Shown: positions 2,817-8,564 of the stretch, piece after piece | Layout of the letters: each line of letters begins with the position of its first letter | How positions within the stretch are numbered: position 1 is the stretch's first letter | Assembly (NCBI GenBank): GCA_003157945.1 | Contig: PMFY01000022.1 | Coordinates: 1,908-10,471 of the forward strand | Length of the DNA stretch: 8,564 bases | Source of the DNA: Acidimicrobiaceae bacterium | Lineage (GTDB): Bacteria > Actinomycetota > Acidimicrobiia > Acidimicrobiales > RAAP-2 | Direction of reading: 5' to 3' | Notes under the pieces: generated by a model | The model's input: only the letters and a program-made list of their open reading frames with translations | What the model was told of the DNA's origin: nothing | The model's database searches: none | Made by a program: the position numbers and the translations under genes

Positions 2817-5621
2817 ATGCACCGAACGACAGGTCACCACCGCAGTCCGGCCAGGAGCCGGAGTGACGGGCTGGGCACAGCCCGGGTGTCGCGTCGCGCC
2901 CTCATGGAGAAGCGACGGGGCGGCGACGACGGGGTCACCCTCATCGAGGTCCTGGTGGCCGGTGTCGTCCTGCTGATCGTCATGATCCCGATGGGCATCC
3001 TGTTGACCAACGTGTCCTCGGCGGCCGCCCAGGCCCGCCAGCACCAGGCCGCCCAGCAGCTCGCCGACTCCTGGATCCAGGTCCTGTCCAACTCGAACCT
3101 GGGGCCACCCACCTCGGGTGGCACGGTGCTCACGAACCAACCGACGCTGCTCACGAGCGCCACCACGACAGCCGTCGGCACTCCCGCCCTGGCCGACGCG
3201 AACGGTCTGACCTCCAGTGAGGGCACCGTCTTCAAGTCCTCGGCCGAGTACACCGAGAACCTCGTCAACGGGGTCGGCCAGTCCGACCTGTGCTCGGCGG
3301 GCACGCCGCCCAGCCCCACGCATCCCGGCGTCATCCAGCTCCAGGTGACGGTCACGTGGGGCCACAATTTCGCCAACTCCCTTTCCGAGGTCACCGAGAT
3401 CGACTACCCGAAGCCCGGCGTCCAGTCGCAGGGGTTCATGGCCATCACCGTGTCGAACGTGCTCGAGGATGACGTGCTGAACAACTCCCCCAAGACCCGA
3501 CTCCAAGCCGTTCCCGTCGTGGTGACCCAGACCGCCACCCCGTCCGGCCCCCTCAACCTTTCGCCCAACCCGTACGTCCTGTACCCCGATCTCAACGGCT
3601 GCATCTTCGCCCAGTTGCCCCAGGGCACCTACGACGTGGCCACCGGTCAGCCCGGAACGGTCTACCCCGGGTACTCCGACACCCCCAACATCCCGGGCTA
3701 CTCCGGGCCCCCTCTGCAGCCGGCGTTCGTGGACACCGCCAACAACAGCACCGAGGACAAGCCCGGCCAGCCCGTCCAGGTGACCGCGGAGACGGTCGTG
3801 CAGCTCGGCGGGTTCGACGAAGGCATCAATGTCAATCTGTCGTACGGCGGGCCGTCGGCGGTCGACTCCGGTGTCGACTGTCCCGGAGCTGCCGGGCTCA
3901 CCTGCGTGACCACGGGCGACGGGTCGACCGGCGCCTCTGCGGCGTGGGGTGGTGCGGGCTCGAACTGGACCTCCACCACGCTGTCGAACGGGACCCACCT
4001 CAACCAGGTCGACTGCACCGACAGCACGCCGTCCAAGTGTGTGGCCGTCGGCTACCTCGGCGGCAACGGCCTGATCTACAGCACCACGTCGGACCTCAAC
4101 ACCACGACCGTCGACTCGGTGCCCACCGGAGTCACCGACATCACCCAGGTCGTCTGTCCCTCCACCCAGGGTTGCTACGCGCTCGGTACGAGTGCGAGCG
4201 GACCGGTGCTGTTGGCGGGGCGGGTCGGATCCGGCACGGACGTCTGGAGGAAGGTCACCCCCGCGGTGCCGTTCACCGCGATGAACTCGATCGCCTGTCC
4301 CACCTCGACCACGTGTGAGCTGACCTACGCCACGGCATCGGGAGCAGGTGTGATCCGCCTCGACGGTGACCCGGCGACGCTCGGCGGCAACCCGGCGTGG
4401 ACCCCGACCTCCACCGCCGATTCGCTGCCGACCACCTACACCGTGGCCTCCATCGGCACCCTCTCGTGTCCCTCCGCCACCGTGTGCGTGGCCACCGCCA
4501 CGGGCGACGCCTCCAGCCCGAGTGACGGGACCGTGGTCGAGGCGACCATCGCCCCCAGCGGTCCGAGCGCGTGGGCTGCCGAGGCCACCTTCCCCGTCGG
4601 TGCCACCTCGGTGAACGGGATCTCGTGCGTCGGCACGAACTGCGTGGCCATCGGCAACGCCTCGCCGAACTCCGTCGGTACGGCTGCCGTGTGGACGGGC
4701 GACCTGACCTCGACCCCGGACAACTGGGTCCAGTCGAACCGCCTCCCGGCCTCCGTCGAGAACGTCAGCGGCGTGGCCTGCGGTCAGCCGTCCCCGGGCG
4801 ACGCCGCCGACTGCGTGATCACCGCCGAGTCCTCGAACGGTGCCGGCTCGGGTCAGCTCCTGACCGGGTCGCTCAATGGCGGAAGCTGGACGTGGGGCTA
4901 CGCCGTCCCGACTTCGGCACCCACCGTGCAGTACTACGTCGGCGTCGCCTGCGAGAACCCACCGTCCGCCGGTGCGTCGACCTGCGCAGCCGTGGGCGCG
5001 ACAGCTTCCGGTCCGGTCGTCATGGCCTCGTCCACCGGCCCCGGGGGCTCATGGTCGGTCAAGACTCCGACGACGCTGAACGGTGCCACCGTCCAGCGGA
5101 TCCCGGTCCAGGTCGCGCCGAACGGGATCGCCGCATGGTCGACACAGGTCGCCGCCAGCCCGGGTTCGGCCAACGCCACCGTCCTCCCGAAAGTGCTCTA
5201 CCCGCAGGCCAACGGCTACTACATCTCGGCGGGGGACTGCTCCAGCGAGAGCTCGGTGACATCATCCCTGACCGCGCTTCCCGGCGGCACGACATCGGCG
5301 ACCGTCCCGCTCGGACTCCTGCCGCTCCAACTCTTTCTCCCGAACGGGGCACCGGCCGCCGGTGCGACCCTGACCCTGACTGCGACGTCCTGCGGTGGCG
5401 TCGGTGACACCTACAACATGCCCATCACGGATGCCACGGGCATGTCGATGGATTCGGTGCCCTACGGCACCTACACGTACTCGGTCACGCTCGGCGGCAC
5501 CGCCGTGGCGCCGACCAACCTCACGCTGAACGTGCAGCCGAATAACGTGCAGGTCACCAACAACCTGACGTCGACATCGACGTCGACCTTCCTTCCCGGT
5601 CTCGTCCAGGTGCCGGCGTGA
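2817..5621 (+). CDS. Giant PilV/GspI-like minor prepilin with an eight-repeat propeller-like domain
   Basis: Surface protein anchored by a type IV prepilin signal: a basic leader ending RRGGDDG, then VTLIEVLVAGVVLLIVMIP, with cleavage after G39, Glu44 as mature residue 5, and a hydrophobic helix to about residue 63. Downstream come a pilin-like N-terminal region, a carboxypeptidase-regulatory/CnaB-like module (about 232-290, with NGCIFAQLPQGTYDV), eight Cys-pair repeats (about 349-751), a segment with VLYPQANGYYISAGDC (793-808), and a second Ig/CnaB-like module (about 838-925, with VPYGTYTYSV). At 934 residues it is several times an ordinary minor pilin. ATG 2817 has only a weak AAAGAG upstream. 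An in-frame ATG at 2904 would give a 10-residue leader, more usual for prepilins, but lacks a ribosome site. First gene of a three-gene minor-pilin operon; its stop overlaps the next start. Prepilin call firm; tip-adhesin role inferred. Confidence 0.85.
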   Translation: MHRTTGHHRSPARSRSDGLGTARVSRRALMEKRRGGDDGVTLIEVLVAGVVLLIVMIPMGILLTNVSSAAAQARQHQAAQQLADSWIQVLSNSNLGPPTSGGTVLTNQPTLLTSATTTAVGTPALADANGLTSSEGTVFKSSAEYTENLVNGVGQSDLCSAGTPPSPTHPGVIQLQVTVTWGHNFANSLSEVTEIDYPKPGVQSQGFMAITVSNVLEDDVLNNSPKTRLQAVPVVVTQTATPSGPLNLSPNPYVLYPDLNGCIFAQLPQGTYDVATGQPGTVYPGYSDTPNIPGYSGPPLQPAFVDTANNSTEDKPGQPVQVTAETVVQLGGFDEGINVNLSYGGPSAVDSGVDCPGAAGLTCVTTGDGSTGASAAWGGAGSNWTSTTLSNGTHLNQVDCTDSTPSKCVAVGYLGGNGLIYSTTSDLNTTTVDSVPTGVTDITQVVCPSTQGCYALGTSASGPVLLAGRVGSGTDVWRKVTPAVPFTAMNSIACPTSTTCELTYATASGAGVIRLDGDPATLGGNPAWTPTSTADSLPTTYTVASIGTLSCPSATVCVATATGDASSPSDGTVVEATIAPSGPSAWAAEATFPVGATSVNGISCVGTNCVAIGNASPNSVGTAAVWTGDLTSTPDNWVQSNRLPASVENVSGVACGQPSPGDAADCVITAESSNGAGSGQLLTGSLNGGSWTWGYAVPTSAPTVQYYVGVACENPPSAGASTCAAVGATASGPVVMASSTGPGGSWSVKTPTTLNGATVQRIPVQVAPNGIAAWSTQVAASPGSANATVLPKVLYPQANGYYISAGDCSSESSVTSSLTALPGGTTSATVPLGLLPLQLFLPNGAPAAGATLTLTATSCGGVGDTYNMPITDATGMSMDSVPYGTYTYSVTLGGTAVAPTNLTLNVQPNNVQVTNNLTSTSTSTFLPGLVQVPA
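3861..5069 (+). repeat. Eight protein repeats with cysteine pairs (propeller-like domain) inside the PilV-like gene
   Basis: First cysteines fall at residues 355, 400, 447, 494, 551, 604, 655 and 712 (spacing 45-57). Each has a partner 5-11 residues on (363, 408, 453, 500, 557, 609, 666, 723). The unit reads hydrophobic-x-C-x(4-10)-C, then commonly a short small-residue/Gly stretch, and later a Trp strand such as VWRKVTP, AWTPT, NWVQS or SWSVK in seven of eight units. Unit size, count and the Trp strand resemble BNR/Ycf48-type beta-propeller blades, each with a probable disulfide. The second unit lacks the Trp. At DNA level the repeats are diverged, so they are old rather than a recent expansion. 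Confidence 0.75.
5567..5584 (+). repeat. Inverted repeat near the 3' end of the PilV-like gene
   Basis: GACGTCGA (5567-5574) and TCGACGTC (5577-5584) form an 8-bp perfect inverted repeat around CA, 33 nt before the coupled GTG start of the PilW-like gene. It encodes part of a Thr-Ser run (TSTSTST), so the repetitive codons alone could produce it. It could still fold in the mRNA and affect the coupled start. Confidence 0.4.
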
Positions 5622-6619
5622 TCGCCGCCCTCCGCCAGCGTCCTCGGGACGACGACGGCATGACGATGGTCGAGTTGATCATCACGTCCGCCGTGCTGGT
5701 CGTCCTGCTCGGCATGGTGCTCCTCTCGATGAACCTCATCGAGTCCCTCGACGCCAACGTCACCGCCCAGTACCAGGAGTTCGACCAGGTGATCCCGGCA
5801 CTCGCACCTCTGCGGACACTCGTCGCCGCCGAGGTGGAGCCCGCACCGACCAACGCCGGCGTGCCGTTGCCGGCTAATCCGGACCCCAATGGAGCGCAGG
5901 CGCCGGCGCCGGGGTTCCAGTCCATCGGCAACTTCTCCGCCACATGGACCACCAACGTGGGGACCAACTACGACAACGTCGTCGGGGCCAGCAACTGCCC
6001 CTCGCTGTGCACGGCCGGCCCGGCCCAGGTCGTCGCCGAAGAACTCGACGGAAACGGCAACCCGGTCGTCTCCACGTCCGCCGGACCGAACACCACCTGC
6101 TCGTCCAAGAGCCCGTGCAGCTTTCAGGTGCGGCTGTACCTGCCCATGATGAGTGCCACGTCCCCGGGCACCTCGACCTGCCCGGTGCCCATCAACGGGA
6201 CGCCCAACGGGACCTGCCAGTACTCGAGCTCGTACAAGCTCATCTCGAACATCCAGGACGTCGTCAACAATCCCGCCTCGGTCGACGGCTCCGGCAACCC
6301 GCTCCACCCGATCTTCACCTACACCGTGGCCGACGCCACCACGGCCAACCCCCTCCTGTTGACCGCGGCCATGATCAACAACCCGAGCGGCGTCATCTCC
6401 GGGTCCCAGCCGTTGAACACCTGCACCGGCACCACCGGGCTGCTCTGCCCGCTCGACGACATCCAGAGCGTGACCATCCACCTGAGGGTCCAGAGGCCCG
6501 CCACCAACTCCTCCGGCGTGGTGGACAACACGATCGTCGAGTACCGCCAGCCGCTGAGCGCGATCTCCGGCTGCTACTCGTACCAGTACTCCAACCAATG
6601 TGATCCCTACGAGGGCTAG
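5618..6619 (+). CDS. PilW/GspJ-like minor prepilin, 333 aa
   Basis: The 14-residue leader MIAALRQRPRDDDG is followed by MTMVELIITSAVLVVLLGMVLL. Cleavage would fall after G14, with Glu19 as mature residue 5, and a membrane/assembly helix to about residue 36. The rest is a secreted region rich in paired cysteines, Asn, Thr and Ser. Near its end, DIQSVTIHLRVQRP and a VEYRQPLSAIS strand recall the closing beta-sheet of PilW/GspJ proteins. No enzymatic domain is recognised. The start is GTG 5618 within GTGA, overlapping the TGA of the PilV-like gene by 4 nt, so translation is probably coupled; no good Shine-Dalgarno lies upstream. By analogy with PilV-PilW-PilX and GspI-GspJ-GspK it would join its neighbours in a complex at the pilus tip that primes assembly. 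Type IV prepilin status is firm; assignment to PilW/GspJ rests on gene order and the C-terminal pattern. Confidence 0.85.
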   Translation: MIAALRQRPRDDDGMTMVELIITSAVLVVLLGMVLLSMNLIESLDANVTAQYQEFDQVIPALAPLRTLVAAEVEPAPTNAGVPLPANPDPNGAQAPAPGFQSIGNFSATWTTNVGTNYDNVVGASNCPSLCTAGPAQVVAEELDGNGNPVVSTSAGPNTTCSSKSPCSFQVRLYLPMMSATSPGTSTCPVPINGTPNGTCQYSSSYKLISNIQDVVNNPASVDGSGNPLHPIFTYTVADATTANPLLLTAAMINNPSGVISGSQPLNTCTGTTGLLCPLDDIQSVTIHLRVQRPATNSSGVVDNTIVEYRQPLSAISGCYSYQYSNQCDPYEG

Positions 6620-6626
6620 GCGAACC

Positions 6627-8564
6627 ATGAACGCACTGACAGCACTGCAGCGGCACCAGCGGAGCGCCCGGACACATCGGGCCACGCAGCGTGGTGCCTC
6701 GGGACGGACCGACCTCGGACAGACGGCGATCGTCGCCGTCCTGGCCCTCACCCTCATCATCGGCGTCATCGGGGGAACCCTCGTCCTCACCGTGGTCGCG
6801 TCGGCGCCGATCCAGCAGACCGCAGCCCTCGCCGACTACTCCAACCAGGCAGTCACGGCCGGCGAGAACGCCTACGTCACGGCGGTCAACGCCAACCCGG
6901 GCCTCGCCTACTGCAGCACCCAAACCGTCGGCACGGGCAAGTGCCTTGGCATCAACTACGGCGAGTGGACGCCCATCACCGGCACTGCCTCGACCGACAC
7001 CGGTGCGGAGTACTACACGTACGGCAACCCGCAGCCGACGTTCGACCCGACGACGCACGAGCTCACCAACTTGGCGGTCGAGGTGGTCGGCGCGGCCAAG
7101 GACCCCCAGAGCTCCACCGGCTACATCTTCGCCCACAAGGTCCTCAACCTCGCGCCGAAGAACGGCTTCCTCTCCCACGTGTGGTGGTCGAACTTCGAGT
7201 CCGAGCCCTTCCAGCTCTCGGGGGCCCAGGACACGGCCAGCAGCTGCAAGTACTTCTGGGCCGTCCGGGCGGGGCAGGTCGCCTCCAACCCGTGCACCGG
7301 GGTCGAGTGGCAGTCCGGGGACGCGGTCACCGGACCGGTCTTCTCCAACGACTCGCTGTACACGACAGGAAGTCCCTCCTTCAGCCCCAATCCCAGCACC
7401 GCAGACCCGCAGTGCGAGTACATCAGCGGCACGGGCTACGGGACCTGCACCACCGACACCCCCAAGACCTACGGCCAGCCGCAGCAGAACCCCCCGGCCG
7501 ACAACTCGCAGTTGGCGGCCACCGCCATCCAGGGCGGTTGCTACTACACGGGACCGACCTCGATCTCCTTCACCACCAACGGCCAGATGACGGTGGTGAG
7601 CAAGGAGTCCCCCAACTACCCCGGCACCCTCACCCAGCAGCAGCCGAGCACCAACCTCAACACCTGCCCGACCAACGGGTCCGGCGCCTTCCCCAGCAAC
7701 GGCGTGGTCTACGTCGCCGCGGCCACCGGGACCTGGCCGTCGTCGGACAACCCCTTCTACTCCTCGACCTCCGGGCTGTCCCAGCTCTCCACCTGCGGAG
7801 GGTCGAGCTGCTACTACGACCAGTCGACCAACTCGACGACCGAGGGTGACGCCTTCGTGGGCGACGCCTGGACCAGCGGCGGATTCTCCGGCCACCTCAC
7901 CATCGCCGCCAGCAACAACGTGATCATCGACAACGAGATCATCTACAACGACTGCACGTTCGGCACCCCGGTGTCCCCGGCCGTCTGGACGGCCTGTGCC
8001 TACAACAACGCCACCGGGTCCACCCCCAACGACGTGCTCGGCCTGATCGCCAACAACTACATCGAAGTGAACCGGCCCCTCTACAACGACTCGGCGAGTG
8101 GCGGCAACAAGGGGAATCCGCTGCCCGACTGCAACGGCACCACCTGGGTGCCGCCCCTCTGTGACCCCTCGACGTCGCAGGGGGACCCGACCAGCACCCA
8201 GCAGGGCCTCACCATCGAGGCGGCCCTCCTGGCCCTCAACCAGTCCTTCGTGGTCAACAACTACAACGTGTCCGGCAGCGAGGGGATCCTCGGCGTCTAC
8301 GGATCGATCCAGCAGGACGCCCGCGGGCCAGTCGGCCTGGCCGGCGGGGGCACCGGCTACCTCAAGAACTACTTCTACGACTCACGGCTCCCGCTCTACA
8401 GCCCGCCCCACTACCTCACCCCGGGAACGCCGTCCTGGGCACTGGACTCGTCGGTCGAGAGCTACACCGGGAAGTGCCCGACGATGCCCCCGGCCCAGTC
8501 GGTGCCCACCGTGCAGACCAGCGGGGACCTCACCTTCAACCAGTCGGGCTGGACGGCCTGCACC
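6627..8564 (+). CDS. PilX/GspK-like minor pilin component, 3'-truncated by the window edge
   Basis: An uninterrupted frame of 646 codons runs from ATG 6627 to the last base with no stop. The N-terminus is a 31-residue basic leader ending TDLG, then QTAIVAVLALTLIIGVIGGTLVLTVVA (helix about 33-57). Mature residue 5 would be Val36, not Glu, as known for GspK-type subunits. Next comes an AGENAYVTAVNANP stretch resembling the PilX pattern. The exported region has many cysteines and the block EWQSGDAVTGPVFSNDSLYT from 227. Later come a beta-rich stretch LTIAASNNVIIDNEIIYND from 424, DVLGLIANNYIEV (469-481), EAALLALNQSFVVNNYN from 531 and TGYLKNYFYDSR near 577-588. From memory this set recurs in PilX-like proteins of actinobacterial type IV pilus clusters; the beta-rich part may be a helix of parallel strands. 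Only 7 nt separate it from the PilW-like gene. Its ribosome site is weak (GAGGG at 6611, rather far). Confidence 0.85.
   Translation, partial: MNALTALQRHQRSARTHRATQRGASGRTDLGQTAIVAVLALTLIIGVIGGTLVLTVVASAPIQQTAALADYSNQAVTAGENAYVTAVNANPGLAYCSTQTVGTGKCLGINYGEWTPITGTASTDTGAEYYTYGNPQPTFDPTTHELTNLAVEVVGAAKDPQSSTGYIFAHKVLNLAPKNGFLSHVWWSNFESEPFQLSGAQDTASSCKYFWAVRAGQVASNPCTGVEWQSGDAVTGPVFSNDSLYTTGSPSFSPNPSTADPQCEYISGTGYGTCTTDTPKTYGQPQQNPPADNSQLAATAIQGGCYYTGPTSISFTTNGQMTVVSKESPNYPGTLTQQQPSTNLNTCPTNGSGAFPSNGVVYVAAATGTWPSSDNPFYSSTSGLSQLSTCGGSSCYYDQSTNSTTEGDAFVGDAWTSGGFSGHLTIAASNNVIIDNEIIYNDCTFGTPVSPAVWTACAYNNATGSTPNDVLGLIANNYIEVNRPLYNDSASGGNKGNPLPDCNGTTWVPPLCDPSTSQGDPTSTQQGLTIEAALLALNQSFVVNNYNVSGSEGILGVYGSIQQDARGPVGLAGGGTGYLKNYFYDSRLPLYSPPHYLTPGTPSWALDSSVESYTGKCPTMPPAQSVPTVQTSGDLTFNQSGWTACT

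Follow-up and report, generated by a model that had tools for sequence, protein, structure and literature searches.

A minor prepilin with a predicted internal beta-propeller, a probable tip subunit of type IVa pili in Acidimicrobiales

The window analysed here is a stretch of 8,564 nucleotides of contig PMFY01000022.1 from an Acidimicrobiaceae bacterium (assembly GCA_003157945.1), and it carries a cassette of three pilin-like genes whose first member encodes a minor prepilin with a predicted beta-propeller between its domains. All features of the window described here lie on the forward (+) strand. The modular minor prepilin gene (2817..5621, 934 amino acids) has an uncertain start codon, either the Met at 2817 or a possible later start at Met30 (2904). 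Its stop is overlapped by 4 bases by the start (5618) of a PilW-like prepilin gene (5618..6619, 333 amino acids; TIGR02532 18.2 bits, cut-off 16.3). Next comes a gene for a PilX/ComZ-like minor pilin with a predicted inserted beta-solenoid (6600..8564), which runs off the window and whose start may be the Met at 6627. This PilV/PilW/PilX gene order is conserved in relatives, with the modular prepilin as the first gene. An earlier reading of the DNA, made from its letters alone and referred to here as the original prediction, had described a 934-residue frame followed by PilW-like and PilX-like genes, and this observation is confirmed.

The N-terminus of the modular protein has the features of a type IV prepilin. 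The leader (amino acids 1-39 from the first Met, 2817..2933) is recognised by its motif, and cleavage would be expected behind Gly39, between DDG and VTLIEVLVAG, which places Glu44 at mature position +5. In an alignment of the window protein with 89 of 90 relatives (P0001, 100% identical, was omitted), the full motif (G/A, four residues, Glu, hydrophobic stretch) is present in 49/90 rows, 46 with Gly and 3 with Ala; the remaining 41/90 are gene calls that start within or behind it. The Glu column holds Glu in 70/90 rows, a gap in 20/90 and other residues in none, and the prepilin signal with Glu at mature +5 that had been proposed is thus upheld. The predicted N-terminal helix alpha-1 (amino acids 42-92, 2940..3092) has the lowest mean entropy among the modules (1.05). 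It is followed by the pilin beta part (amino acids 93-204) and a CarboxypepD_reg/Cna-B-like beta-sandwich (amino acids 205-340), together at 3093..3836, with the border at 204/205 being a reading of the model strand list. A return segment and a C-terminal CarboxypepD_reg-like beta-sandwich (amino acids 756-934, 5082..5618) complete the predicted model.

Between the two sandwich regions, at amino acids ~345-755 (3849..5081), structure prediction gives a confident closed ring of eight four-stranded blades built from repeats of ~45-60 residues, as the original prediction had proposed checking; for blade 1 the strand list has a first strand of only very small length. Each of the eight repeats contains a Cys pair, as had also been claimed, at amino acids 355/363, 400/408, 447/453, 494/500, 551/557, 604/609, 655/666 and 712/723. 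Both Cys are retained in nearly every aligned row (90/90, 89/90, 90/90, 90/90 and then 89/89 four times, counting rows with letters), and random placement of 16 Cys in amino acids 340-756 gave such a pattern in 0/200,000 trials. In every blade the pair sits at the turn joining the first two strands, so that eight disulfides would ring one face of the propeller. The BC loops are the most variable elements (mean entropy 2.28 versus 1.13 to 1.80 for other elements, blades 2-8), which fits a changing binding face. The best Foldseek matches of the propeller are GH74 xyloglucanases (E 5e-8), and conserved acids include D433, D475, D518 and D535, as would suit a pilus-borne enzyme that acts on glycans (a hydrolase or lyase); nevertheless, propeller folds are common to many non-enzymes and no Pfam enzyme family matches the window protein, which leaves catalysis very unlikely, the least probable of the functions weighed here.

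The propeller does not appear to derive from PilY1. PF05567 (PilY1) gave no match to the window protein at E 1, with HMMER filters dropping most matches above about 0.1, and PilY1 kinship is thus not supported by profile. Of the proposal that the fusion achieves PilY1-like display at the pilus tip, the placement of a propeller inside a PilV-like minor pilin stands and the function is plausible, but kinship with PilY1, should that have been intended, is not upheld; a "PilV-PilY1 fusion" is a functional analogy at most. In contrast, the propeller part of the fusion profile finds many free-standing, pilin-less proteins across the genomes of this order. PSII_BNR is over cut-off in two of the three that were scanned, with BNR matching one of these two as well, and many of the free-standing proteins start with an apparent signal peptide, as judged by eye. 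The BNR/Asp-box turn motif in propeller blades is S-x-D-x-G-x-x-W. In the fusion, Trp occupies the would-be Asp-box turn in 7/8 blades and the Asp is mostly missing; the window protein itself matches no BNR-type family in the Pfam scan. The free-standing BNR-type kin and the Trp retained in seven blades suggest, at the level of sequence, that the donor was a BNR/Asp-box-like exported propeller. These free-standing Cys-propellers have a similar Cys-pair repeat but no pilin module, and several are longer. They are numerous and large (L005, L010, L011, L013, L018 and others). Sequence searches against solved structures found nothing for the window protein or for the alignment profile of the third protein, and two weak, probably meaningless matches for the alignment profile of the modular prepilin.

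Relatives lacking the propeller indicate how the fusion may have arisen. The fusion profile was set against seven pilin-only loci from this order, none of which has a propeller within the portion visible. In L053 (genome G155), profile positions 34-339 and then 750-926 match protein residues 29-272 and 275-452, with 340-749 skipped and two residues separating the flanks where the propeller is missing. Similarly, in L057 (G051) positions 37-353 match residues 80-330 and 761-928 match 329-514, with 354-760 skipped. L058 and L059 have the pilin and C-terminal parts, the latter with weak scores, L054 and L055 have the pilin part only, and L056 is cut by a contig end. The domain ahead of the junction in the unfused L057 protein matches PF13620 (CarboxypepD_reg) over cut-off, and the C-terminal domain of the fused proteins P0026 and P0061 matches the same family below cut-off; the propeller thus lies between two Cna-B-like sandwiches. 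Since the profile skips exactly the propeller in these two relatives, its most likely origin is an insertion into a minor pilin that existed before, and insertion is favoured over loss because the pilin-only form is spread wider. A quick tree built on the pilin part has 39 rows (29 loci passing a span and duplicate filter, the window and nine chosen relatives), 31 of them fused and 8 unfused, and needs two changes from one form to the other; it is unrooted and has three unfused rows on long branches. Its starred branches force only one such change, and a single origin is compatible with it.

The same fusion occurs in other genomes, as the original prediction had suggested searching for. With the single sequence as query, the sole genome-contig locus found was in an Acidimicrobiaceae metagenome-assembled genome, isolate bog_763 (L001, genome G001), where the match spans residues 1-932 and its best segment reaches 75% identity; relatives with a stated organism are Acidimicrobiales. 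In a draw from the order, 53/198 genomes match at least a portion of the profile, and among the matches listed the full fusion is present only in G001, this draw holding few members of G001's family. In a draw from that family, in which seven of the genomes recur, 66/100 match at least a portion, and the listed matches were read as showing a single open frame with both pilin and propeller in at least 34/100. A PilX-like match lies on the same contig in 30/34 of these fusion genomes; G277 and G256 have no PilX-like match, and in G236 and G262 it is on other contigs.

The third protein starts with a helix like that of pilins but lacks Glu5: in an alignment of the window protein with 69 of 134 matches (120 listed), chosen for length and coverage, Glu is at mature +5 in 0/67 rows with a letter there. 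PilX_N is over cut-off only in the distant relatives P0176 and P0183. The predicted model has pilin parts at ~66-187 and ~600-625 and a beta-solenoid at ~188-600, inserted before the last strand, and in a second comparison with 252 chains the closest structure was the Thermus tip pilin ComZ. ComZ of Thermus thermophilus has a large domain inserted in a pilin and is a DNA receptor (PMC6561018). The modular prepilin likewise has a large domain inserted in a pilin, and its PilX-like neighbour shares with ComZ both the solenoid and the place of insertion. The modular prepilin itself differs from ComZ in having a propeller rather than a solenoid, and ComZ is a DNA receptor while ComEC was not found in the genomes considered below. 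The PilX-like protein of G001 (L052:3968-11347) has 2459 amino acids and matches fibronectin type III in 15 stretches, a possible long tip arm, and G268 and G211 have PilX-like frames of 4138 and 3903 amino acids.

Genes for a type IVa pilus are present in the nearest genome. A separate locus of G001 encodes PilB (PF00437 and MshEN; TIGR02538 619.6 bits, cut-off 675.65), a PilC-type T2SSF protein, a putative prepilin peptidase, a major-pilin candidate and an ATPase that scores over the cut-off of the PilT family, and PilM is also found outside the cassette. With the putative peptidase counted in, the assembly genes whose absence would have counted against the original prediction are represented there. 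In a selection of 11 genomes, of which nine carry the fusion and two do not, T2SSF, PilM and the PilT family over cut-off were each found in 10/11. Tad-type T2SSF pairs seem present too, from a reading of weaker matches; the actinobacterial pili studied up to 2019 belonged to the Tfpc (Tad) type (PMC6916266). No PilY1-like gene, the other finding that would have spoken against the original prediction, adjoins the cassette in the loci read. Elsewhere PilY1 was found in 0/11 genomes, but the control was silent in 14/14 control genomes and absence is not established.

These surveys also bear on a possible role of the tip complex as a DNA receptor for natural transformation, as with ComZ/PilA2 in Thermus. 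In favour of this role, the fold of the third protein and its place of insertion are like those of ComZ (PMC6561018). However, ComEC (PF03772) was found in 0/11 genomes, although PilT-family ATPases are over cut-off in 10; the ComEC control was positive in 10/14, and genome completeness is not stated. The failure to find ComEC argues against DNA uptake, and a DNA receptor appears improbable. Type IVa pilus genes with the PilT family and no ComEC make it most likely, judging from gene content, that these bacteria have type IVa pili with a retraction ATPase and not a standard DNA-uptake device.

The explanation that we consider likely is that the first gene encodes a modular minor pilin of a three-gene tip complex, with the propeller as the ligand-binding head of a type IVa pilus. 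It draws on the prepilin motif, the predicted fold, the stretch missing in two relatives, the conservation, the cassette and the type IVa pilus genes of relatives. A PilV/I-subunit-like pilin would have gained a BNR/Asp-box-like eight-bladed propeller between its two Cna-B-like domains, and its partners in a priming complex would be the PilW-like pilin and the PilX protein, which is ComZ-like and lacks Glu5. The minor-pilin set (H, I, J, K) is described as the first-assembled tip complex (PMC9934059, PMC7541494), and a priming complex assembled first would ride at the tip. By analogy, the PilX-like solenoid pilin may cap the complex while the PilV-like subunit holds the propeller, probably rigidified by disulfides, outwards as a putative ligand-binding head. 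The ligand could be a surface polymer, or a glycan or protein of another cell, in which case the head would serve adhesion, and PilT-type ATPases would pull the bound pilus.

Several observations weigh against this explanation. The window protein scores below cut-off with both PF07963 (N_methyl; 13.4 bits, cut-off 21.2) and TIGR02523 (PilV; 22.6 bits, cut-off 52.2), and the best TIGR02523 score among three fused relatives scanned is 35.5 bits, in P0043. The match of the third protein to ComZ has a large root-mean-square deviation (9.7 A over 347 residues), and no match under E 1 came from Foldseek alone for that model. Since ComZ serves as a DNA receptor, a tip built in this way need not be an adhesin. 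The machine genes are seen in relatives only, in a survey that covered PilB, PilC, PilM, the PilT family and the prepilin peptidase; the putative prepilin peptidase of G001 matches the A24 N-terminal domain only, without the catalytic domain (E 0.001), and G277, perhaps an incomplete genome, has the full fusion but no PilC, PilM or PilT match.

Alternatively, the propeller could be a structural carrier that primes assembly by docking onto its fellow minor pilins, a role also proposed for the propeller of PilY1, with ligand binding located in the PilX-like solenoid or its fibronectin type III arms. The PilY1 propeller has been described as a carrier with the variable N-terminus as effector (PMC8179133), and the long arm of the G001 PilX-like protein would reach further out. 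Yet the BC loops of the propeller vary most, and pilin-only relatives adjoin a PilX-like gene without any propeller in the cassette, so assembly there needs no propeller. A carrier is thus unlikely, while better placed than a DNA receptor or an enzyme.

The PilY1/PilC adhesin likewise presents a propeller with the minor-pilin set at the pilus tip, together with a PilX without Glu5 (PMC7541494). In contrast to the protein described here, which has a prepilin motif and helix and a propeller unrelated by profile, PilY1/PilC is a soluble exported protein separate from the pilins. PilY1 is reported to be absent in monoderms (PMC9934059). It is possible, and is put forward only tentatively, that an independently acquired propeller took over the role of diderm PilY1, giving a convergent tip with a ComZ-like partner in one three-gene cassette.

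The arrangement had been thought undescribed, and this holds in part. Modular pilins are known in more than 1,200 cases and 264 architectures, with ComZ discussed among them (PMC8179133), and the grafting of an effector module on a minor pilin has been described (PMC8179133, PMC9934059, PMC6561018). Searches of open-licence papers brought up no title or opening abstract on a pilin with a propeller set into it, and one on tapirins found no paper; a propeller architecture may be listed in the data of PMC8179133. The propeller-in-pilin design therefore appears to be undescribed, while modular pilins are known in principle. The nearest parallels are PilB and PilC of Streptococcus sanguinis, likewise minor pilins of a monoderm type IV pilus with a bulky module, a proposed tip location and a role in adhesion (PMC8179133, PMC9934059). 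Their vWA and lectin modules lie behind the pilin, and PilB and PilC have been tested in the laboratory, whereas here a predicted propeller lies between domains.

A one-cassette type IVa pilus tip is thereby predicted for a large group of actinobacteria, most of them uncultured and known chiefly through environmental DNA. The pilin-only and propeller-bearing forms provide a natural before/after comparison, which makes it testable whether a tip propeller serves binding or priming, the roles discussed for PilY1. Additionally, the fused subunit is one polypeptide and should lend itself to study more readily than PilY1 with its complex of several proteins.

The surroundings of the cassette are partly conserved. 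In the window, an AtuA-type gene (3-1187) precedes an acyl-CoA dehydrogenase gene (1200-2402), each with a clear Pfam match. Acyl-CoA dehydrogenase genes lie immediately 5' of the pilin cassette in 4/7 family loci (L051, L074, L075 and L079), with 70-97% identity. The cassette is in two copies on separate contigs in G272, and in L075:2919-15214 (G200:C15) it occurs twice in tandem, with a propeller in both first genes.
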